Shown here: one piece after another, positions 266 through 33,337 of the stretch | How positions within the stretch are numbered: position 1 is the stretch's first letter | How the letters are laid out: every line of letters begins with the position of its first letter | Assembly: GCA_027563145.1 (NCBI GenBank) | Contig: CP071306.1 | Location: forward strand, 124,001-188,000 | Direction of reading: 5' to 3' | Length of the DNA: 64,000 nucleotides | Origin: Halocatena halophila | Lineage (GTDB): Archaea; Halobacteriota; Halobacteria; Halobacteriales; Haloarculaceae | Translations under genes and position numbers: made by a program | The notes under the pieces: generated by a model | What the model was told of the DNA's origin: nothing | The model's database searches: none | Seen by the model: the letters and a program-made list of their open reading frames with translations, nothing else

Positions 266-1849
266 GTGACGATGATTGGTATCGACTTTGGGACGACCAA
301 CAGTGCGGTCGCAGCGCCAACAGGCACCGACGTAACGATCGTCCCGAACGATCGTGGTGATCGACTGACGCCATCGGTCGTTGCCATCGACCGAAAGCAG
401 GCTGTTGTTGGGTCTAGCGCCCGCAATCAGTCCGTTCAGCATCCGGACCGCACGGTGTTTTCAGTAAAAGATTACATGGGAACTGACGAGGAGATTCTCG
501 TTGGTGATCGACCGAATGCGAGTTCGTTCGTCCCCGAAGAGCTGGCCGGAATGATTCTCAGAAAACTCCGTCAGGACGCTGAATCGGCGCTTGATCGGGC
601 TATCGATCGGGCGGTGGTCACGGTGCCAGCATATTTTAACGACCGGCAACGGCAGGCCACAAAACACGCTGGTGAGATTGCGGGGCTATCGATCGACCGC
701 GTGCTCAACGAACCGACGGCGGCGTGTCTCGCCTATGGACTCCGAACGGGAGCCGATCGATTGATTCTGGTGTACGATCTCGGTGGCGGAACGTTCGATA
801 GCTCCCTGATCGAGATGGGTGATGGAGTGTTCGAGGTGGTCGCAACGAACGGCGATACATCTCTCGGTGGAGACGACTGGGACGCGCGCATCGTCGAGTG
901 GCTAGAGGCGGATCTCCGCGAGGAATATGGTTGTGAGATCACGGATCCGGTATCCATCGAGCGGGCATTCGAGGCCGCGCGCACGGCCAAACACGAGCTA
1001 ACCTCTCGGAAAAAAACGACGATCAGACTGCCGTTTCTCGAGCTTGAGAGCGAGACGGTCGACATCGAACGAACGTTGACACAGACCACCTTCGAATCGA
1101 TCACGCGAGATCTCACCGAAGAGACGATCCGACTCTGTGAGCAGTTGCTCGCAGAAAGTCCGTACACGAAGTCATCGATCGATGAGGTGTTGCTCGTTGG
1201 GGGATCGACGCGGATGAAGCAGGTACGATCTCAAGTTGCAACGGCGTTCGACATCGAGCCCTCAACGCAGATCAATCCCGACGAAGCGGTTGCCCTTGGT
1301 GCTGGCGTACAGGCGGCGATTCTTGATGATACCTTACCAGTTCCGAGCGAGGACACAGATCGACAGTTGGACGCTGTCAGCGCCAGCTCCACGGGTGGTG
1401 ATCTCAAACTTCGGAATCCGGATGATATCGTCGTACTCACGGTAACACCACAGTCGGTGGGAACGACTGTTATGACCGATCTACAGACGGAGACCACTGA
1501 GTACAGCGTCCTCATCCCGCGCAATACGCCTGTGCCAGCACACGAAACCGGACTGTACACCACGGTGGCTGACGATCAGCGCTACGTCCGAATCGAGGTG
1601 TTACAGGGTGATGGCCCGCTTGCGGACAATGAGCTTCTTGATGCGTTTGATCTCGGTCCACTGCCACCCCGGCCGGCCGGAGAACCGGATCTCGAGGTAC
1701 AGTTCACAATCGATCAGGACGGCCTGTTGCAGGTGCGGGCCAAAGACCGGGACAACGAAATCGAGTCTGGGGTCACGATTGAATCGGTGTTTGGCCGCAC
1801 CGCCGATGAGATACAAGCGATGGCAACAAACCTCCCGGAGGTGCGCTAA
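266..1849 (+). CDS. Short Hsp70-family chaperone (HscC-like), copy 1
   Basis: ATP-dependent chaperone of about 525 residues, predicted cytoplasmic. The actin-fold nucleotide-binding domain is complete (residues about 1-360): phosphate-1 motif IGIDFGTTNSAVA, phosphate-2 VYDLGGGTFDSSLIE, and the LLVGGSTRM adenosine loop. A beta-type substrate-binding domain follows (about 390-510, including PVPAHETGLYTT). The protein ends at LPEVR without the roughly 100-residue alpha-helical lid of DnaK. This length and partner choice resemble bacterial HscC, which works with membrane J proteins. GTG 266 or ATG 272 could be the start. Eleven bases downstream is a membrane J-domain gene, so the two are very likely co-transcribed and are cognate partners by inference. 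A paralogue lies at 31769-33337. Confidence 0.9.
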   Translation: MTMIGIDFGTTNSAVAAPTGTDVTIVPNDRGDRLTPSVVAIDRKQAVVGSSARNQSVQHPDRTVFSVKDYMGTDEEILVGDRPNASSFVPEELAGMILRKLRQDAESALDRAIDRAVVTVPAYFNDRQRQATKHAGEIAGLSIDRVLNEPTAACLAYGLRTGADRLILVYDLGGGTFDSSLIEMGDGVFEVVATNGDTSLGGDDWDARIVEWLEADLREEYGCEITDPVSIERAFEAARTAKHELTSRKKTTIRLPFLELESETVDIERTLTQTTFESITRDLTEETIRLCEQLLAESPYTKSSIDEVLLVGGSTRMKQVRSQVATAFDIEPSTQINPDEAVALGAGVQAAILDDTLPVPSEDTDRQLDAVSASSTGGDLKLRNPDDIVVLTVTPQSVGTTVMTDLQTETTEYSVLIPRNTPVPAHETGLYTTVADDQRYVRIEVLQGDGPLADNELLDAFDLGPLPPRPAGEPDLEVQFTIDQDGLLQVRAKDRDNEIESGVTIESVFGRTADEIQAMATNLPEVR

Positions 1850-1860
1850 GCGCGCGGCGA

Positions 1861-3207
1861 ATGACCAGTTCAGTGGAATCGGCAGCCAGGATTCTCGGCG
1901 TTGAAACAGACGCTTCTCAAGAGGAGATTACGGCCGCCTATCGTGAACAGGTCAAAGCTCACCATCCCGATCACAGCGACGATCCCGACGCACAGGAGAA
2001 GCTGATGGCGATCAGAGAAGCCAGAGAAACGCTGCTGAATGCCACATCCAGCGATCGGGCGGACGAGGGGAGCAATCAACAGACTACGTCTGATCGGGAC
2101 CGCAGTGCTGCGGACGACGCTCGGACCAATCGCTCACAGCGAAGGCAGGCAACTACTCGCGGCCGAGCCTCTGCGAATCGGTCACGCACTGACCGTTCCC
2201 GATCGGGCAGTCGAGATCGCACCACCACGGAACGCACTCAACACGACCGGCATGCGCGACGAAATCGGCGACCATCAGAGCGGCGCACACGGACCCGCCA
2301 ACGCAAGCTCTCCGATGTCGGCATTGAGGAGTGGACGCTCCGCTCTGTGATTACGAGTCCGACCGTGGTTCGGCTTGCCGTTGGGATCGTGCTTTATCTG
2401 GCCATTATAGCACTCTGGAGTGGCCTGGTCGGCCACCAGCCATCGGCGACACACCAGTATGGTATTTTTATTGTGTCGATTGTAGTGAGCTATCTCGCCT
2501 ACGAGGGTGTGCTCATTTCGGACGTGGGTCCAGAGCGGGCTCTTCCCCGGTTTCAACCGGCCGGCGTTCCGGAGATCTGGCCGTCACTCGGTGCCCATCT
2601 CGGTGGGCTCGTACTGGTGATTCTCATCCACATCCGGGCACCGGCGTGGGGTGCCATGATGATTGGTGCGGTGGGGGCCGGCTGGGCGCTCGTGGGAGTG
2701 GTGGTAGTCGGGCTCGTGCTGTTTGGTCGCCTTCGCGGGATGATTATCGGCATTATCGGGGGATTGCTGGCGCTGGGAGTGCTCTTTACGGAGTACGGTG
2801 GGTCGAATTCAGTCAGGGCCTGGCAGCTCGAAACGTTTGGTTCGGTCGGGCCGTTGCTCCCACAGCTTTCGCTTGGCCCGATCCATCTTGGTGCGTTGTT
2901 CAACGTCGCCCTCGTTTCGATCGCGATCGGTGGCGTACTCTTTGGAACGTATCGGCTGGTGGTGATCCTCACCCTGTTTCCGTGGATCGACCGCTATCAG
3001 CATGGCTTTTCGATTCGCCCAGCGGGCTGGAATCTCGCGGTGGTTCTCCCGTTGGTCACTATCGTCTGGCTGTTGCTCACGGGCACGGTCTGGAACGGTG
3101 GGATTGGCGTGTCGGTCTGGTCGGTGCTCACCTTTTTGTTTTTGGCACCCACGCCGTTGCTCGGACTTTATATTCTTCGGCGAAAATTTGAGCACAACCT
3201 TTTTTAG
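1861..3207 (+). CDS. Membrane-embedded J-domain protein, copy 1
   Basis: 448 residues. The N-terminal J domain (about 7-65) has the essential HPD tripeptide in KAHHPDHSDD, the site that stimulates Hsp70 ATPase. Residues about 70-150 are an Arg/Ser-rich, probably disordered linker (runs such as RSRTDRSRSGSRD). Residues about 170-442 contain roughly eight hydrophobic segments, so the C-terminal half is an integral membrane domain. There is no Gly/Phe region, no zinc-finger domain and no DnaJ C-terminal domain, so it is not DnaJ itself. The known analogy is E. coli DjlB/DjlC paired with HscC; a link to membrane-protein handling is inference. The C-terminal ...PLLGLYILRRKFE aligns with its paralogue at 30296-31720. 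The stop codon lies inside the repeat that begins at 3195. Confidence 0.85.
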   Translation: MTSSVESAARILGVETDASQEEITAAYREQVKAHHPDHSDDPDAQEKLMAIREARETLLNATSSDRADEGSNQQTTSDRDRSAADDARTNRSQRRQATTRGRASANRSRTDRSRSGSRDRTTTERTQHDRHARRNRRPSERRTRTRQRKLSDVGIEEWTLRSVITSPTVVRLAVGIVLYLAIIALWSGLVGHQPSATHQYGIFIVSIVVSYLAYEGVLISDVGPERALPRFQPAGVPEIWPSLGAHLGGLVLVILIHIRAPAWGAMMIGAVGAGWALVGVVVVGLVLFGRLRGMIIGIIGGLLALGVLFTEYGGSNSVRAWQLETFGSVGPLLPQLSLGPIHLGALFNVALVSIAIGGVLFGTYRLVVILTLFPWIDRYQHGFSIRPAGWNLAVVLPLVTIVWLLLTGTVWNGGIGVSVWSVLTFLFLAPTPLLGLYILRRKFEHNLF

Positions 3208-3360
3208 ACTCGGGTTGCCTTCGGCAACCGCTCGTCCGTGGCGAGACGGTCGCTCACTCCGATCGCGCTGCGACTCGCTGGCTCTCACTCGCTGCGCTCG
3301 CGAGAACGAAAAAACGTTGATGAAAAAAGGCCGCGAGCTTCGCTCGCGGTGGGTGATTCT
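3195..3360. repeat. Hairpin-rich direct repeat, copy 1
   Basis: Begins with caaccttttttagactc, overlapping the last codons and stop of the J-protein gene, followed by the hairpin TTGCC-ttc-GGCAA. After about 70 bp of low-complexity 'cgctcactcg' sequence come cgaaaaaacgttgatg and AAAAAAGG (3323-3330), then the perfect hairpin CCGCGAGC-ttc-GCTCGCGG. CCTTTTTT (3198-3205) and AAAAAAGG bracket the element as a long inverted repeat. Near-identical blocks recur at 4481-4670, so the two copies flank the VapBC pair in direct orientation. The hairpins could also end transcription of the chaperone operon. Confidence 0.8.
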
Positions 3361-3396
3361 AGCCACATGCAGTTTTGAAAAATTCCGTCGTAGAGG

Positions 3397-3527
3397 TTAG
3401 TTTTCGTGCGCTGGAGAGACCAACAATTGGAGGATTACGGGAAGTTCCTTGATTGATCGGGCCTCACAAAACGGAACGACAGCTTCTAGCAAACAGTTCC
3501 TGATCACCGCGCACCCAGTCTGTACAG
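3397..3527 (-). pseudogene. Truncated copy of the 3' end of the 4685-5284 gene
   Basis: Read on the minus strand, the segment encodes CLLEAVVPFCEARS, then ELPVILQLLVSPAHEN and a TAA stop at 3397-3399. This is nearly identical to the C-terminus of the 199-residue protein at 4685-5284, whose C-terminus ends ...LLVSPAHDE. Upstream, the match jumps over about 90 bp and resumes with a short piece matching the region near 4881-4900, then disappears. No start codon or N-terminal part remains. It is a decayed partial duplicate, on the far side of the toxin-antitoxin genes from the intact copy. Confidence 0.8.
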
Positions 3528-3694
3528 CCATAGCAATTGTCAAATATAATTATTATAGTCCTCATTTGAATGTTCACCGTTGTCCCAATTGAACTGTGAC
3601 TCACCCATCTCAAGGCAAATTATCGCCATCTTATGATGCGGTCGCCGCAACTGTTTTCTATGTCAACGATGTAGTGGGTATACAGTGGTAAAAA

Positions 3695-3970
3695 ATGGGA
3701 AAGCCGTCATTTGGGGCGAATCCTAGAGAGGAGCTTACGCTCACCGTGGACGATAGGGGACGAGTGACTCTTCCAAAATCTGTTCGCGATCAATTGGGAA
3801 TCGATTCTAACGATGAGATACCTGCAACACTCGTCGGATCCGTCTTGGAAGTTAATCCAAAACCCAGCACAAAACTGAAGACAGCAACAGCAAGTCGCAA
3901 CGACTGGGAGGACACGACACCGACCGATGCCGGAGAAACGCTCTTTGGTCCGATGGAACGCCAAGAGTGA
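3695..3970 (+). CDS. vapB: AbrB/SpoVT-type antitoxin of a VapBC pair
   Basis: 91 residues. A swapped-hairpin AbrB DNA-binding domain occupies about residues 13-50 (VDDRGRVTLPKSVRDQLGI, then a DEI turn). The C-terminal 40 residues are polar and probably wrap the toxin. It overlaps the downstream PIN-domain gene by 4 bp (GTGA), which means translational coupling. In this family the antitoxin binds its own promoter and neutralises the toxin. Such modules are usually horizontally acquired; here the pair is bracketed by direct repeats. Confidence 0.85.
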   Translation: MGKPSFGANPREELTLTVDDRGRVTLPKSVRDQLGIDSNDEIPATLVGSVLEVNPKPSTKLKTATASRNDWEDTTPTDAGETLFGPMERQE

Positions 3971-4455
3971 CTCAAATGAACGAATCTCTTCCGACGGAGG
4001 TGACTGTTCTCACCGACGTAAACGTTCTCGCGATTGCCCTCACAGATGACCACCCCGCGCACACTGATGTTTATCCGTGGATTCAGGACGCACTTGATGG
4101 ACCAAATGCGTTGTTGATATTTGATTATTATCCGTTTCGAGTACAATATCTTATGACGAGCAATTTTGATGTGGATGCTGTAGCCGCTCGAAACGCTATC
4201 CAGTCGCTCGTTCGCAGCCCTGCACGAATCGTGAGTGCTACCGAATCAGTAATCCTCTCGGCATACGAGATCAGCGCCGAGAAAAACCACGACGTGTACG
4301 ATTCATTTATCGTTGCACTTGCACGGTCTTATGACGCCGATTATCTTATTACGACTGACTGTGATTTTGCTGACCTCTGTGCCAATGAAGATACTACATA
4401 CCTCAATCCTATCCCGGATGACAAACGCGAGAAGCTAACGTTCATCGAGGGGTAA
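3967..4455 (+). CDS. vapC: PIN-domain ribonuclease toxin (VapC-like)
   Basis: 162 residues starting at GTG 3967 inside the antitoxin stop; an ATG four codons in is a weaker alternative. PIN fold with the expected acidic residues: Asp in LTDVNVLAIAL, then HDVYDSFIVALA (Asp), and LITTDCDFADL near the C-terminus. VapC enzymes are Mg-dependent endoribonucleases that cut tRNA or rRNA; the target here cannot be read from sequence. Its AT content is slightly higher than that of neighbouring core genes, in keeping with transfer. Confidence 0.85.
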   Translation: MTQMNESLPTEVTVLTDVNVLAIALTDDHPAHTDVYPWIQDALDGPNALLIFDYYPFRVQYLMTSNFDVDAVAARNAIQSLVRSPARIVSATESVILSAYEISAEKNHDVYDSFIVALARSYDADYLITTDCDFADLCANEDTTYLNPIPDDKREKLTFIEG

Positions 4456-4480
4456 TCCGATTACTCCACCGGATTCACCC

Positions 4481-4670
4481 CAACCTTTTTTAGACTCAGG
4501 TTGCCTTCGGCAACCGCTCGTCGAAAAAACGTTGATGAAAAAAGGCCGCGTCACCCACCTTTTTTGATTTCGGGTGCACTCCGTGCACCACTCAATCAAA
4601 AAATCTGGACCAAAAAAGGCCGCGAGCTTCGCTCGCGGTGGGTAATTCTGACAGCATGTAGTTCGAAAAA
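4481..4670. repeat. Hairpin-rich direct repeat, copy 2
   Basis: Second copy of the element at 3195. It contains two nested units, each bounded by CCTTTTTT and AAAAAAGG: 4484-4545 around the hairpin TTGCC-ttc-GGCAA, and 4558-4619 around GGTGCAC-tcc-GTGCACC. It ends with the CCGCGAGC-ttc-GCTCGCGG hairpin and ggtgggtaattct. The 70-bp spacer of copy 1 is missing. The copy continues into sequence matching 3361-3396 and then into the 3' end of the 4685-5284 gene, so the duplicated block is larger than the hairpins alone. Confidence 0.8.
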
Positions 4671-4684
4671 TTCCGCAGATAGGG

Positions 4685-5284
4685 TTACTCGTCGTGCGCT
4701 GGAGAGACCAACAGCTGGAGGATCACGGGAAGTTCCTCGGTCGACCGAGCCTCACAGAACGGAACAACAGCCTCTAGCAAACAGCTTGCAGCAGACACAG
4801 CTTCATCCTGCGTTTGCGCTCGTGCAGGATCCTCCGGACGATCTGGAGAAAACGCCAATAAAGTAACGTCACCGCTCCGTTGCTCATGCGCACGCAGTCT
4901 GGCATCGTTTTCGAACCAGGCGGTGTAGATCGTCTCGCCCTGCGATCGAAACCGAGTGATCCGATTCAGTGACGGAAGCTGATCAGGACCGCCAGTTGAG
5001 CGCTCGCTCAGATCAGCGATCGCCAGCACCTCCTCAACCTGACGGCTGTGTCTACACTCCGTTGATTGACACGGCCGACACCAACAGTTCTCGGCGATAT
5101 CCACAACGTGATGCAACTCAGCAGAGGAAAGCTCCGCTCGATCCTCGATCGCTTCGAGCGTGCTGATTTGACCGTCCGCCGTTCGGAAGCTGAACTGTGG
5201 AAGGCTCACGAGCTCACCCTCCACGATGGACAGCCAGTCGCGTGTGCGCGCGGACGAGCCACTGGATGGCCACAGCGAGCACAC
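4685..5284 (-). CDS. Uncharacterised 199-residue protein with a short Cys cluster
   Basis: I do not recognise the family. It begins at GTG 5284. The central part carries a cysteine group (ENCWCRPCQSTECRHS) that could bind metal, followed by EEVLAIADLSERS and a mixed alpha/beta C-terminus ending LLVSPAHDE. A different upstream frame offers an ATG start and a CARCGHP knuckle running to the same point, so the true N-terminus may be altered by a frameshift near 5230. The 3' end is duplicated at 3397-3527. A strong minus-strand promoter at 5462-5474 and a hairpin-rich leader lie upstream. Confidence 0.55.
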   Translation of the reverse strand: MCSLWPSSGSSARTRDWLSIVEGELVSLPQFSFRTADGQISTLEAIEDRAELSSAELHHVVDIAENCWCRPCQSTECRHSRQVEEVLAIADLSERSTGGPDQLPSLNRITRFRSQGETIYTAWFENDARLRAHEQRSGDVTLLAFSPDRPEDPARAQTQDEAVSAASCLLEAVVPFCEARSTEELPVILQLLVSPAHDE

Positions 5285-5339
5285 CGTGTGGTAGTCATTG
5301 ACGATACGACAGGATTACAGTACCGCAGCGTTATTCCCT

Positions 5340-5438
5340 TCATGGGTTTGCTACCGATAGGGAACCCAGCGTCGGGTGCTCCTACACCCGGCGCGTCTTT
5401 CGATAACGCGCACCCCGCAACGGGGACTGGTGCTCCCT
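5340..5438 (-). ncRNA. Candidate structured RNA or 5' leader
   Basis: Four consecutive hairpins: 5413-5425 (CCCCG-caa-CGGGG), 5391-5411 (GCGCGT/ACGCGC), 5369-5394 (CGGGTG/CACCCG extended by GCG/CGC), and 5344-5367 (GGGTT/AACCC). The second and third share GCGC 5391-5394, so they are mutually exclusive. A BRE/TATA at 5462-5474 on the minus strand would start a transcript near 5437, right at the 5' edge of the structure. The RNA would be the leader of the 199-residue gene or an independent ncRNA. It matches no RNA family I know; a TnpB-type omega-RNA remnant is an alternative for the opposite strand. Confidence 0.45.
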
Positions 5439-5461
5439 ACTCTCTGTGCCTTCCGCTTCCG

Positions 5462-5474
5462 TTATAAACTTTCG
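5462..5474 (-). promoter_or_regulatory. BRE/TATA promoter
   Basis: On the minus strand this reads CGAAAGTTTATAA, a good haloarchaeal BRE followed by a TATA box. The expected start site (about 27 bases from the box centre) falls at about 5437, at the 5' edge of the hairpin cluster and about 150 bases upstream of the GTG at 5284. Confidence 0.55.
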
Positions 5475-5792
5475 TATGTGTTGGAATTCTTCCCTGTTAT
5501 GTGATGCGTCTGGACCGTCCTATCCAACCAGTACTCGAACAAAGTAGGGGCAACTAATATTGCCAGCCAGTAATTCATTCTATTTTACAAACTAGACAGA
5601 TTCACTCACACTCGTCGTGAGTGGTTGCGCCGCCAACTGTGACGAACATCCTTCGCGCACCCAAATTTCACAAAACTAAAATTGAAACTATAGGAGATCT
5701 CCTCACACCTGCTGCTACACCACCACCAACCATCATTCGTGTTGTCGTCTGTCTCCTGGATAGATCCCTATCGGGGAGCCCATGCTCACACG
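5475..5792. other. Intergenic, no gene seen
   Basis: AT-richer than its surroundings. No open frame with protein-like composition and no repeat of the hairpin elements was seen. It separates the promoter at 5462-5474 from the 3' end of the coiled-coil gene. Confidence 0.5.
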
Positions 5793-6524
5793 CTAACCGG
5801 CCGTTCTGGTGGTGACACTCACAACGTTCGTGAGCACGCCATCCACCGCCTCCATCGTGAACTGCTCAGCCCTCTGGAGCCGGTTCGCAAGCCAATCGTC
5901 GAAGATCACTGCCTTGCCCTTGCCCGTGTGCACCACCTCCGTTCGATTGCCGCCCAGCCGATCGAGAAACGCCATCACCCGCGCCACCGTCTGGTCGTGC
6001 GTCGAGCCGTACTCGTGTTGCAACTGTTCTTTGATCGTGGTCGAATCCAGGCGTTTTCCCTTCGGCACTGTCGTTGCCAACCCGCCGAGCTCCATCGCGA
6101 TTGTCCGCGCTCGTCGTTGATTGGCGGTTAACTGCGCCCTGTGGAGAATCTCATCGGGCAACCGAACGATCTGCTCTAACGGCGTCCGCTCTTCGCTGCC
6201 ATCACAGCGCTCAAGCTTCCGTGCAACGGCCTCGGTGTGAGCTTTGTTCTGTTCCGTCGCCCGCTTGTTTTCGGTCACGTCCTGTCTGATTTCGGCCTTA
6301 TCGCGCTCGTTTGTCTCGCGATAGTCCGTGTGTACGTCCTCTAGCGTCGAGATCTGCTCGGACTGGGCCTCAACCGTCTTGACCAGCTTTTCGACCGTTG
6401 CTCGCAGGTCGGTGATCTCCCGACGTTGCTGCTGGATTATTTCTATTAGCTGATCATCACGATCGCTGCTTTCAGAAGAACTAACTATGCTCCGTCCGTC
6501 GCCCTCGTTGGGTTTGTAATTCAT
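5793..6524 (-). CDS. Coiled-coil protein with C-terminal helical/wHTH-like domain
   Basis: 243 residues, family not recognised by name. Residues about 25-110 are a long polar coiled coil (LIEIIQQQRREITDLRATV and onward, heptad-like). The C-terminal half (about 115-225) is compact and basic, with EQIVRLPDEILHRAQLTANQ and DRLGGNRTEVVHTGKG, suggesting a winged-helix or small DNA-binding domain. Similar architectures occur on haloarchaeal plasmids and proviruses, which fits its place in the accessory island. DNA binding is inference. Confidence 0.7.
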   Translation of the reverse strand: MNYKPNEGDGRSIVSSSESSDRDDQLIEIIQQQRREITDLRATVEKLVKTVEAQSEQISTLEDVHTDYRETNERDKAEIRQDVTENKRATEQNKAHTEAVARKLERCDGSEERTPLEQIVRLPDEILHRAQLTANQRRARTIAMELGGLATTVPKGKRLDSTTIKEQLQHEYGSTHDQTVARVMAFLDRLGGNRTEVVHTGKGKAVIFDDWLANRLQRAEQFTMEAVDGVLTNVVSVTTRTAG

Positions 6525-6804
6525 TTGTGTTCACAACCCACCCTCGGGCGTGCTTCTACACGTCCGGGGAACCGGGCAACCGGTTCTGTCCAATCGGATG
6601 AGTATACATACCACATCAAAGTACCACTATTAATACCTAACGATATATAGATAACACCTGAGATATGATATAGAATTGTTTTGACTTCGTTCAGATGATA
6701 TTTCGGCACAGATGACTCACAGTCCGGATATACACCCAATCAAAGATCACCACAACACATAACACCGAAAATCATATCTCTCATATATCATTTTTCCATT
6801 GGAA

Positions 6805-6813
6805 TTTTTATTA
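6805..6813 (+). promoter_or_regulatory. TATA box for the 6835 gene
   Basis: TTTTTATTA centred about 26 bases before ATG 6835. Transcription would begin at or next to the start codon, giving a leaderless mRNA, the commonest arrangement in haloarchaea. Confidence 0.55.
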
Positions 6814-6834
6814 CTGCGGGAATAACTCCACATA

Positions 6835-7782
6835 ATGGCAGCTCCCTCCGTTAGTGCTATCCTGGTAGTGGTGCTGATTGTCCAGCTCATCCTCGCGGTT
6901 GGGGTGCTGATGGACGCCAATCGACGCCAGCTCACCCATCCATTGGGTTACGCCTACGGTGTGTCCGTTCCACTCGCTGGCTATCTCGTGTTCGCAGCGT
7001 ATCTCACACGCAGAACGGAGCTGCCAGCCAACGCTGCGCACTCTCAAACTCATTCCGAACCAAAGTCGGAGTTTGTCTGGACGATCGAAAACCGTGGACT
7101 TCGTCGGCTTCCCTGGCGGCTCGCCTACGCCATCCAGGACGGAACCACGCTGTGGCGCGTGGCAAAAACCACTCCACTGCTGCTGTTCATTTGCACCATC
7201 CTCGTGGACCCACGGATCGCGAAAGCACTGCTTCTGTTCTGCTTGCTGTTCTGGCTGACGTATCTGACCACCGCTCGGCTGTTCATTGACACGACGGTTC
7301 GACTGCAGCCCGCAGACGACACGATCCAGGTGATCGGACGCGGCAGCGACCATCCACTCTCACCGGGCGGATACGATCACGAGATCGATCTATCCGATCT
7401 CACCCGCGTGGAGCTTCGCCGCGTGGGAACGCAGCCGCTTGCCATTTTCCGATATACAAAACGGTTTTCTAACAGTCCACGCTCGCTTGTGGTTCCCAAC
7501 GAACAGCTCGCACAACTCAGGCACCTGCTGGACGCGAACGATGTCCCGATTCATGACCGCATGCGGGATGACTCGAGCCGTGGCGCAGTCCAACGGCGGT
7601 GTGCCGAGGGGTTCTTCTCACTGCTCATTCTCCCACTCGCCACAGTTATGCTCTGGCCACAACACATACTCTCTGGACCGGTGGTCGCCTTTTCGCTGTT
7701 TTGTCTCCTCTGGCTCGCCGTTAAAAGTGCGAATGATGTGATCGAGTACGCCAGCACCCAACTGCGATCGGTCCAGCGATGA
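6835..7782 (+). CDS. Uncharacterised membrane protein
   Basis: 315 residues. Hydrophobic segments lie at about 5-25, 38-58, 113-150 (two) and 258-300 (two). A soluble stretch of about 100 residues between the fourth and fifth segments (TTVRLQPADDTIQVIGRG ... LVVPNEQLAQL) has the beta-rich look of a PH-like domain. No catalytic motif was seen. The start is supported by the leaderless promoter at 6805-6813. Confidence 0.75.
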   Translation: MAAPSVSAILVVVLIVQLILAVGVLMDANRRQLTHPLGYAYGVSVPLAGYLVFAAYLTRRTELPANAAHSQTHSEPKSEFVWTIENRGLRRLPWRLAYAIQDGTTLWRVAKTTPLLLFICTILVDPRIAKALLLFCLLFWLTYLTTARLFIDTTVRLQPADDTIQVIGRGSDHPLSPGGYDHEIDLSDLTRVELRRVGTQPLAIFRYTKRFSNSPRSLVVPNEQLAQLRHLLDANDVPIHDRMRDDSSRGAVQRRCAEGFFSLLILPLATVMLWPQHILSGPVVAFSLFCLLWLAVKSANDVIEYASTQLRSVQR

Positions 7783-7817
7783 ACGGGTACGACGCCCGAT
7801 CAGCCCGCAAACGGTCG

Positions 7818-8150
7818 TTACGAGCGCGAGAGTAATGCCGACAGCGCTGAAATGAACTCCCCGACCACCGCGTCGTCCGCACCGAACCGCGCCTGGATGG
7901 TGCCACCGTCAGATGGCAGATCGATCTGATAGTCGGTCCACGAGCAACAGTGCGATTCGTTCCAGACGAGTTCTGTGACAACGTCGTACACCGCTACGTC
8001 CAAGGTGCCGTCAACTATATGACCAATGGTGCCAATCACCACGACTATGAAGACATCCACTCTGTCCTGAAACTGTTGCTGATAAACTCGAATATTGCCG
8101 TCTCGTTGCCTGTCGCAGGCTATTTCGGCTATTGTCGAGTTTTTCTGCAT
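7818..8150 (-). CDS. Small uncharacterised protein
   Basis: 110 residues, convergent with the 6835 gene. Residues about 30-110 look protein-like (VDGTLDVAVYDV, then ESHCCSWTDY, then GADDAVVGEFISALSALL). A paired-Cys motif CCSW is the only striking element. The first 30 residues are less convincing, and GTG at 8060 would give an 80-residue protein. Function unknown. Confidence 0.5.
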   Translation of the reverse strand: MQKNSTIAEIACDRQRDGNIRVYQQQFQDRVDVFIVVVIGTIGHIVDGTLDVAVYDVVTELVWNESHCCSWTDYQIDLPSDGGTIQARFGADDAVVGEFISALSALLSRS

Positions 8151-8214
8151 ATGATAGCGTTCGACGCATTTGGAGTATCACGGCAGTAGCGGGCTCGACA
8201 ATCGGATACCTGTA

Positions 8215-8223: not shown

Positions 8224-8246
8224 CCAGACTCCTGATAGAGACAGCC

Positions 8247-25537: not shown

Positions 25538-25567
25538 GGTCGAGTTCGGAGCCAGCGCCGCTATACG

Positions 25568-26395: not shown

Positions 26396-26447
26396 GATTG
26401 CAGTTGGAAGTGGACGGTGAAAAGCACATCTCCCTGGGGGAACAGAC

Positions 26448-26656
26448 ACAGTACGTTTCGTCTGTTCTTCATCAGACGATGGGGCCAGTCGATCGGCTGT
26501 CACAGTACATTTCGTCTGTTCTGTTGGGGGAGAATATTGATATGGATTAACTCTTATGGTTGCGGCAATAGCTATTCAGTTCATCGAATCGAGAGCGAAC
26601 AGACGAAACGTACTGTGACACCAACACTTAAACGACAAGAACAGACGAAACAGACG
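26448..26656. other. Putative replication origin with ORB-like inverted repeats
   Basis: Four related elements: 26448-26467 (acagtacgtttcgtctgttc), 26499-26530 (cacagtacatttcgtctgtt then a G tract), and two in the opposite orientation at 26597-26619 (gaacagacgaaacgtactgt) and 26639-26656 (partial). The first and third are exact reverse complements over 20 bp. Between the inner pair lies AT-richer DNA (26533-26590). Repeats inverted around an AT-rich segment beside an orc1/cdc6 gene, with a G run at one end, match the organisation of haloarchaeal origins. The actual firing of this origin cannot be judged from sequence. Confidence 0.75.
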
Positions 26657-26708
26657 AACACAGCTATTATATACACTGTGGTTGAAATGATCTGGTATTG
26701 AATCGTAT

Positions 26709-27911
26709 ATGAAAGACCCATTCGAAGGTATCACCGAACAGTTATTTGAGAACAAGCACGTTCTTGAGGAGGACTACGATCCCGAAACGATTCTCGAACG
26801 AGAAGCGGAGATTGAGGCCTACCGGAACGCCCTGAAAGACATTCTGTTCGGCCGCACCCCCTCAAACATCTTCATCTACGGAAAAACGGGTGTGGGAAAG
26901 ACGGCTGTGACCCGATTCATGATGGATGCGCTGCAAACCCAGGTCGAAGGGCGTACGGCGGCAGATCGGCTCACAGTGCTGTTTCACAACTGTAACAACG
27001 ACTCGGCGTACGGCACCCTTCGTGCGTTCATCAACACGCTCAGGTCACCGTCTGAGCCTACATTTCCGAAAAAAGGACTCTCGACCAGTGACGCCCTTGA
27101 GGAGTTCTATGCGCTCCTCGACGAACGAGGTGGAACGTTTCTTTTAGTACTCGATGAGATCGACCACCTTGCGAAAGTGAACTCATTGCTCTATGAGATT
27201 CCCCGCGCACGCTCGAATGGTAATCTCAAACGAGCGAAGATTGGTGTGATCGGCATTTCCAACAACTACCGGTTTAGAGACAGCCTGAGCCCGAAAGTAA
27301 AGGGAACGCTGATGGAAAAAGAACTCTCGTTTTCTCCCTACGATGCCGACGAACTCCGGACAATCCTCTCTCACCGTGCCGAGAAAGCATTCATCGAAGG
27401 TGGATACAAACAGAGTGCGATTGCACTCTGTGCAGCTAAGGCCGCTCAGGACACCGGAAGCGCCAGACAAGCGCTCGATCTGTTGAGCACTGGCGGCGAT
27501 ATCGCCGAAGATCGTGGTGAGGACATCGTGACGGATGAGCACATTCGAGACGCAGAAACCCGCGTCCAGCGCGGACGAGTCCGGAATAAAATACAGGATC
27601 AAACACCCCACGGACAACTCATTCTCGAGGCAATCGCCAGACTCGAAGCGAACGAGAAGACACCCGTTCGATCGAAAACAATTCAATCGACGTACGAACG
27701 GGTTGCAAACCGCTGGCAGACCGAACCACTGTCGTCGCTGCGTAGCGTCCAGGACCACCTCTCGGAGCTGAAAATGCTTGGATTTCTCTCTCGGACGGAA
27801 CGAAACGATGGCCGGGCCGGGGGTGCCTACTACGAGTACGAACTCGCAATGGACGCAAACGCAGTCTTTACTGCACGCAAGGAAATCGAACACGAGGAGC
27901 CGACCACCTGA
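26709..27911 (+). CDS. orc1/cdc6: Orc1/Cdc6 replication initiator
   Basis: 400 residues. AAA+ ATPase: Walker A IYGKTGVGKTAVTRF (about 56-70), Walker B TFLLVLDEIDHL, sensor 1 VIGISNNYRFRDS, and sensor-2-type GSARQALDLLSTGGD. C-terminal winged helix (about 300-390: LRSVQDHLSELKMLGFLSR). It binds ORB repeats and loads MCM. It lies next to its likely binding sites at 26448-26656, and an ATTATATAC box at about 26666 could drive it. Haloarchaea carry many paralogues, each usually dedicated to its own origin. Confidence 0.95.
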   Translation: MKDPFEGITEQLFENKHVLEEDYDPETILEREAEIEAYRNALKDILFGRTPSNIFIYGKTGVGKTAVTRFMMDALQTQVEGRTAADRLTVLFHNCNNDSAYGTLRAFINTLRSPSEPTFPKKGLSTSDALEEFYALLDERGGTFLLVLDEIDHLAKVNSLLYEIPRARSNGNLKRAKIGVIGISNNYRFRDSLSPKVKGTLMEKELSFSPYDADELRTILSHRAEKAFIEGGYKQSAIALCAAKAAQDTGSARQALDLLSTGGDIAEDRGEDIVTDEHIRDAETRVQRGRVRNKIQDQTPHGQLILEAIARLEANEKTPVRSKTIQSTYERVANRWQTEPLSSLRSVQDHLSELKMLGFLSRTERNDGRAGGAYYEYELAMDANAVFTARKEIEHEEPTT

Positions 27912-28246
27912 TATTACCACACAAAATAACAAAAACATTTACTAACAGTTTTATCAGACAGGGTCAAAGAAAATTTGATACTAACCCTGTATTCTCGCCG
28001 TCTGCGGGATGATCGTTGCCGAACTTATCTTAATATGACTTTCTAAATTTAAGATAATTTCTCCAAAGTGAGTATAAATAACTGGAATATGATTTAGGAA
28101 CATGCTTATAACTGTAAACTCCGTTCGTGTATACAAGGAAACCGGACGGTAGATGTGATAGAAGGTTGAAGGATCGGTGATGGTACATGACGTGGTGTTG
28201 GCGTTGATACGGTGTGTGTCCGTCCGGTCGCCACCAACGAGACGCC
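27912..28246. other. Intergenic, no gene seen
   Basis: AT-rich 335-bp stretch after orc1/cdc6. No plausible open frame and no further copies of the ORB-like repeat were seen. It may hold the orc1/cdc6 terminator and the promoter of the 48-residue gene. Confidence 0.4.
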
Positions 28247-28393
28247 ATGGAAGAAAAGACTCACGCACGGACGGACGGTCGCTACGAGAACTATGGTCGC
28301 TTCGAAACACGTGAAGGCCTGCTCGTCGTGTACGAACACGACAACCCCAACGCGTGGATTCGCTCAGACGAGATCTCCCAACTGGAGGAGTAG
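28247..28393 (+). CDS. 48-residue haloarchaeal microprotein (DUF7331-like)
   Basis: Starts MEEKTHARTDGRYENYGRF and ends ...WIRSDEISQLEE. Highly charged, with YENYGRFETREGLLVVYEHD, then a WIRSD motif. From memory this matches a small conserved haloarchaeal family (DUF7331); I could not check. Function unknown. Convergent with the FAH-family gene. Confidence 0.75.
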   Translation: MEEKTHARTDGRYENYGRFETREGLLVVYEHDNPNAWIRSDEISQLEE

Positions 28394-28485
28394 GCGACGA
28401 GCGCTCTGGGCGCGGGCACTCGACACAACCGACGGTATGCGAACGGTTCGTGGTCGAAGCAGCCGTACGAACCGAACACAAAGAG

Positions 28486-29205
28486 CTACTTTTCGGGGGC
28501 GACGACCCTGTTGGTCAGTGTGCCGATCCCGTCGTATTGAATCCGAACTTCATTCGTTGGCTCTAGGAGGCCAGGATTTGCTGGACTCCCAAACGAAATA
28601 ACGTCTCCAGGAGTGAATGTAAATCTTTCTGATAAGAATTCAATGATGGTTCGTGGATCGATGAACATGTTTTCGGTGGAGTCTGCCTGTCGTCGTTCAT
28701 CATCGACGTGCGTTTCCATCTCGATGGAATCCGGCTCGATCGCCGTTTCGAGCCAGGGGCCGATCGGTGCGGATCCGTCGAACGCTTTTCGCGCGGTTCG
28801 CCGTGGCTGATCAAGCGCGTCGAGATCGTTGAGGATGGTGTAGCCACGAACGATTGAATCGACCTCTGATCGTGAGACGTTCGAACAGGGTTTGTCGATC
28901 ACGGCTGCAAGTTCGCCGGCATAGGTCAGTTCGTCGGTGAACGACGGATAGACGATTGGTTCACCAGGTGCACGGACCGCAGTAGGTGGCTTGATGAAAA
29001 AATCCGGTTCGTCGGGAATGTCGTAGTCCATCTGCTCGACTTTTTCGCCAAAATTACGGCCAACGCAGTAGATCGCCGACGGATCACACGGTGCGCGGAG
29101 ACGATACGCCGACGGTTCGTACTCTTGATCGTCTGTGATGACGGTTCCGTCGTCGTACTCACCCCAGTGGATTCCATCGTCCGTTTCGATGCGCGCGAGC
29201 TTCAT
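28486..29205 (-). CDS. Fumarylacetoacetate hydrolase-family protein
   Basis: 239 residues from ATG 29205 (MKLARIETDDGIH). FAH fold with YCVGRNFGEKVEQMD (GRNY-like substrate loop), PDFFIKPPTAV, YAGELAAVIDKPC with the metal-ligand glutamate, and GDVISFGSPANPG near the C-terminus. The family hydrolyses or isomerises acylpyruvates and other 2-oxo acids; the substrate here is unknown. Possible alternative starts lie up to 63 bp upstream. Confidence 0.88.
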   Translation of the reverse strand: MKLARIETDDGIHWGEYDDGTVITDDQEYEPSAYRLRAPCDPSAIYCVGRNFGEKVEQMDYDIPDEPDFFIKPPTAVRAPGEPIVYPSFTDELTYAGELAAVIDKPCSNVSRSEVDSIVRGYTILNDLDALDQPRRTARKAFDGSAPIGPWLETAIEPDSIEMETHVDDERRQADSTENMFIDPRTIIEFLSERFTFTPGDVISFGSPANPGLLEPTNEVRIQYDGIGTLTNRVVAPEK

Positions 29206-29346
29206 ACCCGGTCGTTCGGCGACCGTCGGAAAACAGTTGTCATTCATATTCATAGTCGGTCTGGTCAAACGGGCCTGTAACCCAGTTGGAGCTACTTCTA
29301 TGGCTGAAAAACGCCTATCCCGGATTCGGCCGTGGGTTCACCAGAG

Positions 29347-30090
29347 ATGTCTCGTCGAACCTACACGCGGCGGCGGCTGTTATCGTCAGTAGCCCCTGGA
29401 GTTATCGGGATGCAATCACTACAGCATACGGCTGGGAGTCAAGCATCAACGGCGGGGATACAGACGGTCTCTCAAGGCTCGACGACGGAGCTGTTGGACA
29501 GTCCGACGGGCTGGGCAAACGGGACCACGAACGCGACTGGGGTAACGATCGAACAGGCGACCGATACCCAGACGAATCGAGCAACCGTGGATACGCTCGC
29601 GCCGGTCGAGTCCAGTGGCACGTTCACCCAGATGGCACTGTTGGGTGGTCGGTTTTCCGTTGGGGACTGTCAGTCCACAACGGTGTCCACGACGATAACC
29701 GGACAGATTAACGGCGTCGCACAGGCCGGTAAAGAATCCCCAACGGAGGTTGCAATTCGGTACGGTATGGGTCCTCGTGAGAAAATCCGGAACGCACTCA
29801 TGTCGCTTGAGGATGGCTCGGCGTTCGAGGCGGTGGCGACAGAACGTACGTTCCAGAAATTGCACGTCACGGACAGCACACTACGCGTCGTTTCTGACCC
29901 GATGGAGGTAACGCTCTCCGGTTCGGTCTCCTGTGAGACCACACAGGTGGCCTACGTTCGGCTTGTGGTGTCCGGAACGGTGGATGCAACCAACACGGTG
30001 GGTATCGATTTTGGACCAGGCGATCCAACACTCTCGACGGCGACTACTGGGCTCACGCTCGATAGCGTGTCGCTATCAGTTGAGAACTAA
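29347..30090 (+). CDS. Tat-exported protein of unknown function
   Basis: 247 residues from ATG 29347. The N-terminus MSRRTYTRRRLLSSVAPGVI has a twin-arginine signal. The mature part is Thr/Ser-rich and beta-rich with two paired cysteine sites (GDCQSTTV, VSCETTQV) and a C-terminal repeated-strand pattern (VGIDFGPGDPTLSTATTGL). No lipobox. Family unknown. Confidence 0.65.
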   Translation: MSRRTYTRRRLLSSVAPGVIGMQSLQHTAGSQASTAGIQTVSQGSTTELLDSPTGWANGTTNATGVTIEQATDTQTNRATVDTLAPVESSGTFTQMALLGGRFSVGDCQSTTVSTTITGQINGVAQAGKESPTEVAIRYGMGPREKIRNALMSLEDGSAFEAVATERTFQKLHVTDSTLRVVSDPMEVTLSGSVSCETTQVAYVRLVVSGTVDATNTVGIDFGPGDPTLSTATTGLTLDSVSLSVEN

Positions 30091-30295
30091 CCACACAGAA
30101 ACTGTCGCCCGAGACACTAACGACCGGCCTCATCCTCTGGCTGTGTGCCACGTCGGCCGGGAAACCCTCGTGTCGGGCGTCTGTCGCGTGCCTGGGTTCG
30201 CCGCGCTGTCATCGCATCCCAATGGGATACACTCGGGCGGGGACTAATGGCACGCAACTGGAGTAAGAGCGCCACAGGTTAGACGGTTTCGAACG

Positions 30296-31720
30296 TCAGT
30301 ACTGATCATACACCCGGTCACGGAGTGTCGGCTCAGCCTGTCGTCGCACCAGGTAGAGTCCCGTGAGCACGGACGGAAGCACGAATATCCGAACGAGGAG
30401 ATCGCCCTGGGTGACCACGTGCTTTATGATGGGGAGCACCACCTGATGGTGGTCAAAGAGCACCATCCAGCCCAGAAGGGCGAACGGAACGACGACGAGA
30501 ACGTTCCAGATTCCTGGTCGGACTCGGTATCCGTGCTCGTATCGGTCTCGCCACGGCGCGGTCGTGAGCCGGAAGGCCATCGAGCCAACGCTCCAGAGCA
30601 GACAGCAACTCACGACGAGTCCGATCAGGAAGTTCACCAGCAGCCCAATCCGAAGCGGACCAACTTCGATGGGTGCAATCCATGGCGTTGCCGTGAGTGA
30701 CTCCCATCCGACGATCGTAGCGGTCGTATCAGTGATCCCCGTGAGTGTAATCCAGCCGGCCGTCGTGAACAACAGGCCGCCAGCCAACACAGCCCCCATA
30801 GCGACGCCAACGCCGGTCGTATGGTTTGCGACGGAGTCGGTCCCTCCAACGACCGAGCGGAGGCCGTTCGCAAAGGTTGCGGGCACCAGTACGAAAAACA
30901 CCAGTGCAATCGCAACCGTTAGGACTGCAAACTCGAGGCCCCCGTCCGTCGGTCCCATGAATGGATCGGCCCCGAGCAAACAGAGTCCAACAAGGTTCGC
31001 GGCGACGATCGGCCAGAGTCGTGGTCTGCCAGCTGGCTTATAGCGCTCGCGGTGACGTGCCCCAACGCGGAACAACGGCGAAAACAGCTCGTAACCGATG
31101 TAGCTGCTTACGAACGCGCCAAATAGCAGCCATAACTCGGTCGTTGTATCGAGTGGCGACCCGTTCAGTAGTGGAAACAACACAATCCCACCGACAAATA
31201 GAACCGTTGCAACGGCAATCCGGATGACAGTCGGCGACTGGTGATCTGAGGTGTCCGTCCAGTCGATCCACTCAAACGCGGTTGATGGGTGGGTGATCGT
31301 TCGTGCAAACCCACTAGCACCGGCTTTGAGTCGGCCAAGCGCCCATTCGAGTTGCTCTCGAACGGTCGGATCGATGCGTTCGGTGCTTGCCGTCTGTTCT
31401 CGTTCGTGTCGCTCGGTTTTTGTCCACCGATTGGCTCGCGTCCGCGTCCACCATCGTCGCTGGGATCGGCGGTGTGAGCCGACATCGGAGTCCGGGCTCG
31501 CTCTGGCCTGCTGTTGGTGGCTGGCTTCCGAGTTCGACTGTGGTGATCGATCGAGCAGCGCCTCCTTTGCCTCCTGAATCCGAATGATCTTCTCTCGTGC
31601 ATCCGGTGCGTCGCTCACATCCGGATGGTGTCGTTTGACCTGCTGTCGGTACGCCTGACGAATCTCCGAAGGAGTGGCGTCCTGGCTTACACCGAGCAGA
31701 TCGTGATACGACTCAGACAT
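30296..31720 (-). CDS. Membrane-embedded J-domain protein, copy 2
   Basis: 474 residues. J domain at residues about 1-60 with HPD in KRHHPDVSDA. Residues about 65-125 are a polar Arg/Ser/Gln-rich linker. The rest has about eight hydrophobic segments. It is a paralogue of the protein at 1861-3207: shared landmarks are PTVIRIAV (PTVVRLAV there), RYEHGYRVRPGIWNV (RYQHGFSIRPAGWNL), and GLYLVRRQAE (GLYILRRKFE). It follows its Hsp70 by 48 bp. Sequence divergence between the two copies, despite identical layout, indicates an old duplication with separate roles. Confidence 0.85.
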   Translation of the reverse strand: MSESYHDLLGVSQDATPSEIRQAYRQQVKRHHPDVSDAPDAREKIIRIQEAKEALLDRSPQSNSEASHQQQARASPDSDVGSHRRSQRRWWTRTRANRWTKTERHEREQTASTERIDPTVREQLEWALGRLKAGASGFARTITHPSTAFEWIDWTDTSDHQSPTVIRIAVATVLFVGGIVLFPLLNGSPLDTTTELWLLFGAFVSSYIGYELFSPLFRVGARHRERYKPAGRPRLWPIVAANLVGLCLLGADPFMGPTDGGLEFAVLTVAIALVFFVLVPATFANGLRSVVGGTDSVANHTTGVGVAMGAVLAGGLLFTTAGWITLTGITDTTATIVGWESLTATPWIAPIEVGPLRIGLLVNFLIGLVVSCCLLWSVGSMAFRLTTAPWRDRYEHGYRVRPGIWNVLVVVPFALLGWMVLFDHHQVVLPIIKHVVTQGDLLVRIFVLPSVLTGLYLVRRQAEPTLRDRVYDQY

Positions 31721-31768
31721 ATGCTTTCGTGTCGTGGTAGCGGTCGGCTTCGAAACACAGACTCCACA

Positions 31769-33337
31769 TCATCGGATGGGTGGCAGATTTTGTTGCATGA
31801 CCGTGAGTTCGTCGTCAGTGAATCCGAAGACTGGCTGTATTTCGATCTCATCGCCGACATCGTGGTCAACGTCCCGAGCGTGTACGTTCAAGATTCCATT
31901 CTCATCCAGTATAAATGTGACTTCGATGGTCGGTTCTCCGGCCGGCCGTTCGAGTAGCGGTCCGAGCTCGAACGAGTCGAGCAGTTCGTTCTCCTCGATA
32001 CGGGAGTTGTCGCCCTGATACACCTGAATCTCGATTTCGGACTGATACTCTCGAGCGGTCGTCGTAACGTACGATTCGCGCGCCGGGATCGGCGTGTTTC
32101 GCTCGATTACGACGTGGTAGTACGGTTCATACGTTTCCTGGTCGATCAACACCACACCGAATGGCTGTGGTGTCACATCGAGCATCACGACCGTGTCACT
32201 CGGAGAGGGAAGGTGCTGTGCGTTCTGTCGTGGGTGGCGCTCACCTCCGTGTTCGAGTTCGCCGTCGAGTATTGCTGCCTGTGCTGCAGCACCGATCGCG
32301 ACGGCCTCATCGGGATTGATCCGTTTCGATGGCGTGACGCCAAATCGGTCGGTAAGTCGGCGTCTAACCTGTCCCATTCTCGTTGCGCCGCCGACCAGCA
32401 GGATTTCGTCGATATCCTGTGGCCGATAGCCGGTCTCAACGAATAAGCGTTCAACCCGATCAATGGTCGTCTCGAGAAGATCGCTCGTCAGCTCGTCGAA
32501 TCGTTGACGATCGATCGGGATCTCCACATCTGTTGTCCCTTCGTCGTGTTCGAGAAACGGAATTGAAATCGTTGTCGACCGTCTGCTCGAAAGCTCGTGT
32601 TTTGCGGTTTTGACCGCGTCAAACAGCCTGGACTCGAGCTGTGGTGAGTCCGTGACGGATACGTCGTACTCACGTTCGATTCGATCCTCGAGCCACTCGA
32701 CCACCAGTGCGTCCCAGTCGTTTCCTCCCAGTCTCGTGTCGCCGTTCGTGGCAACGACTTCGAACAATCCATCGGTGATATCGATCAGAGAGCTATCGAA
32801 CGTTCCACCACCCAGATCATACACCAGCACGGTCGCGTCGTCGGCCCATTGCAGCCCGTACGCGAGACACGCCGCGGTCGGTTCGCTGATGATCCGCTCG
32901 ACGGTGAGCCCAGCCATCGCCCCGGCGTGCTTTGTGGCCTGTCGCTGTCTGTCGTTGAAATACGCCGGTACAGTGATGACCACATCGTCGATCGACTCCT
33001 GCAAATAGGCTTCGCCGTCGTGCTTGAGCTTCTTTAAGATCAGTCCGGCGAGTTCCTCGGGAGTGAACGCACAGTCGCGTGGACCGAGCAGAATCACCTC
33101 ATCAGAGCCCATGAACCGTTTGATCGCGAACACCGTTCTATCAGGGTGTGAAACGGCCTGCTTTTTGGCCTGTCGCCCGACGAGCGCCTGCTCTGTGGCT
33201 TCGTCGAACGCCACGACTGATGGTGTTGTCCGATCGCCGGTATCGCCGGGAAGGATCTCGATGTCACCCGCCTCGGCGTGGGCAATCGCGCTATTCGTCG
33301 TCCCCAGATCGATCCCAATGGTTGGTGTCTCACTCAT
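31769..33337 (-). CDS. Short Hsp70-family chaperone (HscC-like), copy 2
   Basis: 522 residues from ATG 33337 (MSETPTIGIDLGTTNS). The ATPase domain is complete: IGIDLGTTNSAIA, VYDLGGGTFDSSLID, EILLVGGATRMGQV. A beta substrate-binding domain follows (PIPARESYVTTTA, LLERPAGEPTIEVTF). It ends at DELTVMQQNLPPIR without a helical lid, as in copy 1. It is upstream of the paired membrane J gene. No GrpE is linked, so nucleotide exchange may be intrinsic or supplied elsewhere (inference). Confidence 0.92.
   Translation of the reverse strand: MSETPTIGIDLGTTNSAIAHAEAGDIEILPGDTGDRTTPSVVAFDEATEQALVGRQAKKQAVSHPDRTVFAIKRFMGSDEVILLGPRDCAFTPEELAGLILKKLKHDGEAYLQESIDDVVITVPAYFNDRQRQATKHAGAMAGLTVERIISEPTAACLAYGLQWADDATVLVYDLGGGTFDSSLIDITDGLFEVVATNGDTRLGGNDWDALVVEWLEDRIEREYDVSVTDSPQLESRLFDAVKTAKHELSSRRSTTISIPFLEHDEGTTDVEIPIDRQRFDELTSDLLETTIDRVERLFVETGYRPQDIDEILLVGGATRMGQVRRRLTDRFGVTPSKRINPDEAVAIGAAAQAAILDGELEHGGERHPRQNAQHLPSPSDTVVMLDVTPQPFGVVLIDQETYEPYYHVVIERNTPIPARESYVTTTAREYQSEIEIQVYQGDNSRIEENELLDSFELGPLLERPAGEPTIEVTFILDENGILNVHARDVDHDVGDEIEIQPVFGFTDDELTVMQQNLPPIR

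Follow-up and report, generated by a model that had tools for sequence, protein, structure and literature searches.

Lidless Hsp70 genes paired with membrane J-protein genes in Halocatena and other haloarchaea

Two gene pairs in the window

The window analysed here, a 64,000-nucleotide stretch of the Halocatena halophila genome (assembly GCA_027563145.1, contig CP071306.1, positions 124,001 to 188,000, forward strand), contains two paralogous operons, pairs A and B, in which the gene for an Hsp70 chaperone without its C-terminal lid is followed by the gene for a membrane J-domain protein. The original prediction, made from sequence alone, had placed these operons at 266–3207 and 30296–33337, with the same gene order on opposite strands, and both were found there with the following features.

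266–1849, plus strand: Hsp70-A, a lidless Hsp70 of 527 residues (PF00012 match and residue alignment)
1829–1846, plus strand: C-terminal LP tail of Hsp70-A, NLPEVR
1861–3207, plus strand: J-A, 448 residues, with an N-terminal J domain containing HPD, an Arg-rich linker and a multi-spanning membrane domain
1891–2046, plus strand: J domain of J-A (PF00226, residues 11–62)
2356–3204, plus strand: membrane domain of J-A (hydropathy and profile)
31769–33337, minus strand: Hsp70-B, a lidless Hsp70 of 522 residues, counted from the ATG at 33337, with an open frame reaching back to a GTG at 33376
31772–31789, minus strand: C-terminal LP tail of Hsp70-B, NLPPIR
30296–31720, minus strand: J-B, 474 residues, with an N-terminal J domain containing HPD, a low-confidence linker and a multi-spanning membrane domain
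31544–31708, minus strand: J domain of J-B (PF00226, residues 5–59)
30299–31237, minus strand: membrane domain of J-B

Hsp70-A and Hsp70-B match the Pfam HSP70 family (PF00012) with E-values of 8.5e-146 and 1.8e-153 (487 and 512.4 bits against a cut-off of 20.6), covering profile positions 1–512 and 2–512 of 599, respectively. Because both matches stop at position 512, the proteins comprise the whole β-subdomain of the substrate-binding domain (SBDβ) but no lid, as had been predicted. The ends of both proteins align to DnaK residue 523, short of the DnaK lid, and their scores lie below the cut-offs of the DnaK equivalog models (491.5 and 505.7 against 822.55 for TIGR02350; 509.7 and 519 against 648 for NF001413). 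The AlphaFold model of Hsp70-B has a mean predicted local distance difference test score (pLDDT) of 75.8, with the chain stopping after a helix at 508–516.

The DnaJ domain (PF00226) is matched by J-A and J-B at E-values of 9.2e-13 and 2.1e-14 (48.5 and 53.8 bits against 27.8), and HPD and the paired motifs PTVVRLAV/PTVIRIAV and RYQHGF/RYEHGY are present in the two proteins as claimed. Beyond PF00226 no Pfam family exceeded its cut-off in either protein, including the zinc finger and the DnaJ C-terminal family, whose absence had been anticipated, and both proteins fall below the DnaJ_bact equivalog (47.3 and 53.1 against 377.2). Hydropathy gives eight candidate membrane segments in J-A and seven in J-B, all after the N-terminal J domain and in agreement with the "about eight" proposed. 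The linker of approximately 100 residues had been described as Arg/Ser-rich, which fits J-A (27% Arg, 12% Ser) but less so J-B, with only 14% Arg and 11% Ser. The AlphaFold model of J-B (mean pLDDT 69.4) contains the J-domain helices and a helical membrane part, with linker residues 59–117 and 140–161 below 50. Foldseek found no PDB match for the membrane part at E ≤0.001, and of the 168 matches at E ≤10 the 50 listed were nearly all J domains; by sequence, the J membrane domain matched a single PDB chain, at an E-value of 0.29.

Copies and conservation in the Halocatena clade

In the following, C1 and C2 are contigs of the window's genome (G000), G-numbers are sampled genomes, L-numbers are loci, and the type letters A, B, C, D and S are labels of this analysis. 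The predicted number of two copies proved too low, as this genome contains three pairs and a solo membrane J gene; its four Hsp70 genes are dnaK and three lidless ones. The additional copies are listed below.

C1:711532–714634: pair C, with a lidless Hsp70 gene at C1:711532–713157 and, 61 nt on, the gene for J-C, a membrane J protein of 471 residues with HPD
C2:697006–698262 (L014:6007–7263): type S, a solo membrane J protein of 418 residues, with a J domain lacking HPD and no Hsp70 gene beside it

The sole grpE match over the cut-off, at C1:1365397, is distant from and unlinked to the Hsp70 genes, in keeping with the predicted lack of a linked grpE; a second match fell below the cut-off.

With a profile of the J membrane domain, matches were found in 18 of the 391 genomes of the class, four of these in the window's genus, and in all seven genomes of that genus, of which G391 was not counted again (its coordinates equal those of G276), giving six distinct Halocatena-clade genomes. 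These encode 20 full-length membrane J proteins, 14 of them directly downstream of a lidless Hsp70 gene, with the Hsp70 gene always first and gaps of 11–68 nt (11 nt in pair A and 48 nt in pair B). Conservation of the neighbourhood had been set beforehand as the test that could refute the pairing, and all 14 lidless Hsp70s found in the six genomes proved to be J-linked. Since there are seven J-domain matches in the whole 3.7-Mb genome, yet every lidless Hsp70 found in the six genomes is linked to one, chance adjacency is very unlikely. HPD is intact in all 14 pairs, and Hsp70 and J distances correlate across them (r = 0.80). The genes are under purifying selection, with ratios of nonsynonymous to synonymous substitution rates (dN/dS) of 0.06–0.26 in 12 gene comparisons (seven genes between the window's genome and G393, five between G337 and G360), types C and S included.

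Pair B is found in all six genomes; in the sister-genus genome G159 the J gene is separated from a contig start by 231 nt, and PF00012 finds DnaK alone. A search with PF00012 in four of the six (G000, G276, G337 and G360; not G392 or G393) yielded nine non-DnaK Hsp70s, namely eight lidless proteins with a J gene and one GrpE fusion without. This fusion (L116:4275–6182, G360:C2) is a 635-residue Hsp70 with a C-terminal GrpE domain (PF01025, E-value 1.5e-22, residues 533–634) and altered motifs (GIDLGAMNST, DDACLAG) in its nucleotide-binding domain (NBD).

The types differ in the residues, numbered as in DnaK, that serve catalysis, contact with GrpE and docking of the J domain. In types A, B and D the equivalents of D8, T11, K70, E171, D194, T199 and R167 are all present. 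All five type C proteins retain R167 and D393, but four have a substitution at K70, four at E171 (to D in two of them) and three at T199; stretch 27–36, which we take to be part of the loop that contacts GrpE, is about seven residues shorter in two of them and about two residues shorter in the other three, and the substrate-binding domains (SBDs) carry an insert. HPD of type S is absent in three of five genomes (the window's, G393 and G337) and present in G360 and G392. The solo type S gene of the window's genome adjoins genes resembling queC, queE and queD by eye, and in G360, G337 and G392 (L051, L052 and L111) the type S gene stands directly after a gene for an M50 site-2 protease with CBS domains, on the same strand. 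Within the window, downstream of pair A, a short AbrB-like open reading frame (by eye) and a PIN-domain gene (PF01850) at 3695–4455 are probably a toxin-antitoxin pair.

Related pairs and covariation across the Halobacteria

An SBD profile was run on the 391 genomes and, among the best matches listed, types A and B of the genus scored 213–254 bits, proteins of genus g8 (same family, five of five sampled genomes) 183–189 bits and DnaKs at most 154 bits. It failed to separate other lidless lineages from DnaKs, with G310 and G344 at 151 bits. PF00012 was searched in all 37 genomes with at least two SBD matches outside g1 and g8, plus 24 chosen earlier (two shared); G194 was then set aside, its second match being a DnaK split at contig ends. 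This revealed 42 non-DnaK Hsp70 loci outside the window's genus, at least 20 of which consist of an LP-tailed lidless Hsp70 gene and an adjacent J gene. The 20 outside pairs come from 10 genera in families f1, f3 and f4, with 14 on the same strand and six head to head. In G365, a J gene lies ∼2.9 kb from two lidless Hsp70 genes, both encoding an LP tail; the clusters of G205 and G027 (L253 and L254) each combine a short LP-less Hsp70 gene with another, divergent Hsp70-like gene and two J-like genes that are degenerate. Neither LP nor J was found at 10 of the 42 loci (in G201 the contig stops just past the gene). The remainder are a 611-residue Hsp70 without J (G174:C4), a broken gene (G332) and seven giant Hsp70s of 1042–1217 residues (L115, L235, L236, L238, L239, L260 and L261), several ending like RYE..LYLRDDL and that of L115 with an extra SBD-like stretch before the NBD. 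The short Hsp70 at L113:5091–6725 has C2H2-like Cys/His stretches between NBD and SBD (zf-C2H2 below cut-off) and has lost R167; no J gene was found beside it, and its tree neighbour is L250 (G238).

The large multi-spanning domain predicted for the J proteins holds in Halocatena; the outside J proteins have other membrane parts, with at least one predicted segment in 16 of the 20. The J protein of G344 shares the Halocatena membrane domain (E-value 3e-19), other tested partners do not detectably, and those of G046 and G199, with no Hsp70 nearby, do. Standalone membrane proteins of 248–301 residues in other haloarchaea (L055 and L058–L063) share the C-terminal part of this domain (DRY..G..V.P..W), with no J domain and no Pfam match over cut-off. 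Hsp70-B also matched 169 plasmid records, of which four were inspected. On two of them, Haloarcula taiwanensis pNYT1 (H15, probably the same sequence as contig C3 of G055) and Haloarcula hispanica N601 pHH126 (H20), a J gene accompanies a lidless Hsp70 gene with an LP tail; the pHH126 pair consists of HISP_RS17085, an Hsp70 of 530 residues ending LPALHR, and HISP_RS19530, a J protein of 553 residues with HPD. Of the others, H1 is a full-length dnaK with no J beside it and H21 lies between grpE and dnaJ. Outside Halobacteria (131 same-phylum of 157 sampled genomes) no tail was reached, none of the matches listed at E 1e-30 extending past position 135 of the 141 in the profile, a check at one threshold on one sample that is no proof of absence; the frames of these matches are at least 591 residues except in G482, G491 and G427, where they lie at contig ends.

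A quick tree, which left out 11 of 64 rows as close or spare, separated the lidless group together with n_G294, n_G027 and n_G129 from DnaK, HscA, HscC and other truncated Hsp70s (34 versus 19 rows; Shimodaira-Hasegawa-like approximate likelihood ratio support 93, not starred). A clade of the 31 lidless rows alone, without these three, has an approximately unbiased test p-value (p-AU) of 0.0375; the tail or the J pairing may therefore have been lost in this side group.

R167 of DnaK contacts the J-domain aspartate. For comparison of this docking pair, 38 J rows were used (36 adjacent J proteins, the second J of G216 and the non-adjacent J of G365). The J-domain xPD motif and Hsp70 R167 covary: both are kept in 30 rows, both are lost in eight, and in none is one kept and the other lost. 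R167 is also lost in seven J-less truncated Hsp70s of another group and kept in the unpaired n_G282, n_G294 and n_G129. An LP within the last 20 residues was found in 31 of 36 J-adjacent Hsp70s, the exceptions being three of type C and those of G205 and G027, as compared with two of 12 non-adjacent truncated Hsp70s, both from G365 (Fisher 2.3e-5, over related rows); this count leaves out the seven giant Hsp70s, the GrpE fusion, G174:C4 and the broken G332. The tails, for example NLPPIR, ELPTVR and ALPTLK, resemble the LP motif of Zuo1. L and P are among the 13 invariant columns of eight aligned SBDs, which is not independent evidence, as all eight were chosen from LP-tailed proteins. Taken together, the R167/xPD covariation and the association of LP with J adjacency suggest, at the level of sequence, that Hsp70 and J protein are dedicated partners.

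Proposed mechanism, alternatives and meaning

We consider it probable that each pair forms a dedicated two-component chaperone, in which the membrane J protein recruits its own lidless Hsp70. The J protein would hold its J domain on the flexible linker at the cytosolic face of the membrane and, in types A and B, this domain would stimulate ATP hydrolysis by the Hsp70. Without a lid, the Hsp70 would hold its clients, likely membrane or secreted proteins, only briefly and would work at the membrane as a holdase with fast on/off exchange. The LP tail, located just past the start of helix A, could serve as a built-in low-affinity pseudo-substrate for SBDβ, as the LP motif of Zuo1 does for Ssz1, and so stabilise the Hsp70 itself. 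This J-recruited, fast-exchange, tail-stabilised Hsp70 is proposed because of the resemblance of the tails to the Zuo1 motif and because lidless DnaK, as described in part of PMC7083937, has faster peptide on and off rates. Type C may be a stably bound pseudo-Hsp70 that allows its J protein to serve an active Hsp70, as its J-docking residues are kept and its catalytic residues and part of the presumed GrpE-contact loop are largely lost.

By analogy, the nearest mechanistic relative of these pairs is yeast Ssz1-Zuo1, and not HscC. Ssz1 has no lid, binds ATP but does not hydrolyse it, and takes the LP motif of Zuo1 into its SBDβ as a pseudo-substrate, in the account given in part of PMC7083937. 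In both systems a lidless Hsp70 (no SBDα) has a dedicated J protein and an LP motif is tied to a lidless SBDβ; type C is moreover predicted to be unable to hydrolyse ATP, like Ssz1. The haloarchaeal LP, however, lies near the C terminus of the Hsp70, and J-A and J-B start with the J domain, with no N-terminal LP as in Zuo1. The archaeal J proteins are also embedded in the membrane and not known to bind ribosomes, and types A and B keep their catalytic residues. A haloarchaeal, membrane-anchored counterpart of the ribosome-associated complex, comprising lidless Hsp70s with their own LP pseudo-substrate, an obligate dedicated and usually membrane-embedded J protein and a catalytically dead type C through which its J protein becomes a membrane co-chaperone of an active Hsp70, is a tentative and rather doubtful extension. 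The haloarchaeal DnaK-DnaJ-GrpE system shares the Hsp70 fold, the J domain and the catalytic residues of types A and B, but it has a full lid, occupies a separate branch of the tree and is encoded elsewhere in the window's genome. Among plant truncated cytosolic Hsp70s, Type III T1 is described as lidless (PMC10687569, in part); these are eukaryotic, and the portion of that article concerned mentions no pairing with membrane-J genes.

Several observations weigh against dedicated pairs working in this way. When the aspartate alone is compared with R167, both are kept in 30 rows, the aspartate is kept and R167 lost in two, the reverse occurs in none and both are lost in six (Fisher 1.0e-5, Fisher values here treating related rows as independent); the two exceptions are G205 and G027 (SDD and DGD, with E at 167), and the xPD criterion was chosen after the rows had been seen. 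The losses of R167 fall in about three lineages (g8, G365 and G205/G027). D393 is T in types A and D and is changed in several outside rows, although kept in Hsp70-B. Three of the 14 Halocatena Hsp70s, all type C, have the P without the L, and docking of the LP tail in the groove in cis is unsupported by the AlphaFold model of Hsp70-B, because the tail (residues 509–522) is of low confidence, with pLDDT below 50. Outside Halocatena, four of the 20 J proteins have no predicted membrane segment and three more only one. HPD is intact in only nine of the 20 outside pairs, with NPD, LPD, QPD or SPD in six and SPM in five, and J-stimulated ATPase is therefore doubtful there. Finally, six of the 20 full membrane J genes of the Halocatena clade adjoin no Hsp70 gene (five of type S and, in G276, one C-like by alignment).

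Of the competing explanations, an HscC-like accessory Hsp70, running an ordinary cycle on few membrane proteins with lid loss and tail incidental, appears unlikely. Here as in Escherichia coli K-12, where djlC adjoins hscC, a non-DnaK Hsp70 has membrane J partners encoded nearby; part of PMC8215388 describes DjlB and DjlC as tail-anchored and suggests the plasma membrane as the site where HscC acts. HscC, however, has 556 residues and, as the same article describes, keeps its lid, from which nine residues of helix B are missing. The Halocatena J proteins have several membrane spans following an N-terminal J domain, unlike DjlB and DjlC, and hscC and djlC lie on opposite strands. No LP occurs in the last 20 residues of HscC, and the tree does not place this protein (end branch 2.49; support of 30 for the branch placing it with the lidless rows). 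Membership of the HscC family itself was rejected on the lid that HscC retains (550–580 residues against 527 and 522) and on J architecture. The original prediction named HscC-DjlB/DjlC as a known precedent; this stands for the membrane J partners, and is weaker than Ssz1-Zuo1 because HscC keeps its lid and Ssz1 lacks one, as far as parts of PMC8215388 and PMC7083937 describe them.

It is improbable that the J membrane domain serves a separate function, as a transporter, scaffold or sensor, which the Hsp70 merely regulates or assembles. The six membrane J genes without a neighbouring Hsp70 would fit such a role, as would type S, which keeps the membrane domain with HPD gone in three of five genomes, and the J-less membrane proteins that share its C-terminal half. 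Related lidless Hsp70s, however, have J partners with membrane parts that, except in G344, show no detectable relationship, and thus no single membrane function explains the pairing. Decaying paralogues of little function are very improbable, since the loss of catalytic residues in type C and of HPD in most type S proteins is set against the low dN/dS of these same types and the frames and gene order kept across genomes.

Dedicated chaperone pairs of this kind seem to have gone undescribed, as had been proposed: among the matches listed in the open PubMed Central (PMC) literature, no title or abstract dealt with lidless haloarchaeal Hsp70s or their J pairing, most subscription journals lying outside the search. 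Expanded MreB-like proteins are reported for YIM 93972 ('Actinoarchaeum halophilum'), a haloarchaeon that forms hyphae and spores (PMC10067837, in part). Hsp70 and DnaK are absent from the main text of that article. The Hsp70 genes might be this expanded family, because the Pfam family MreB_Mbl matches Hsp70-A and Hsp70-B over its cut-off, but the MreB-like places of the window's genome include three that are not Hsp70s (C1:115255, C2:334658 and C2:496495), one of which passes the Pfam cut-off. The same article, in the part concerned, lists 61 clade-specific gained genes, most with no or only generic prediction and many predicted transmembrane or secreted. Within this sample, pair B could be one such gain, because it occurs in all six Halocatena-clade genomes and, among the matches listed, no Hsp70 outside the genus scores near it, the next genus being g8 with 183–189 bits against the 213–254 bits of types A and B.

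Collectively, the several copies and their relatives in other haloarchaea suggest an undescribed use of Hsp70 chaperones, often at the cell membrane, in a clade that includes hyphae- and spore-forming haloarchaea. If the dedicated-pair reading is true, the Hsp70 family would include a prokaryotic class, often bound to the membrane, that functions lid-free, which would test how much of Hsp70 function depends on the lid. The covarying Arg-Asp contact would offer natural partner-coupled and J-uncoupled Hsp70s, and the LP tail predicts convergence with the eukaryotic Ssz1-Zuo1 complex.

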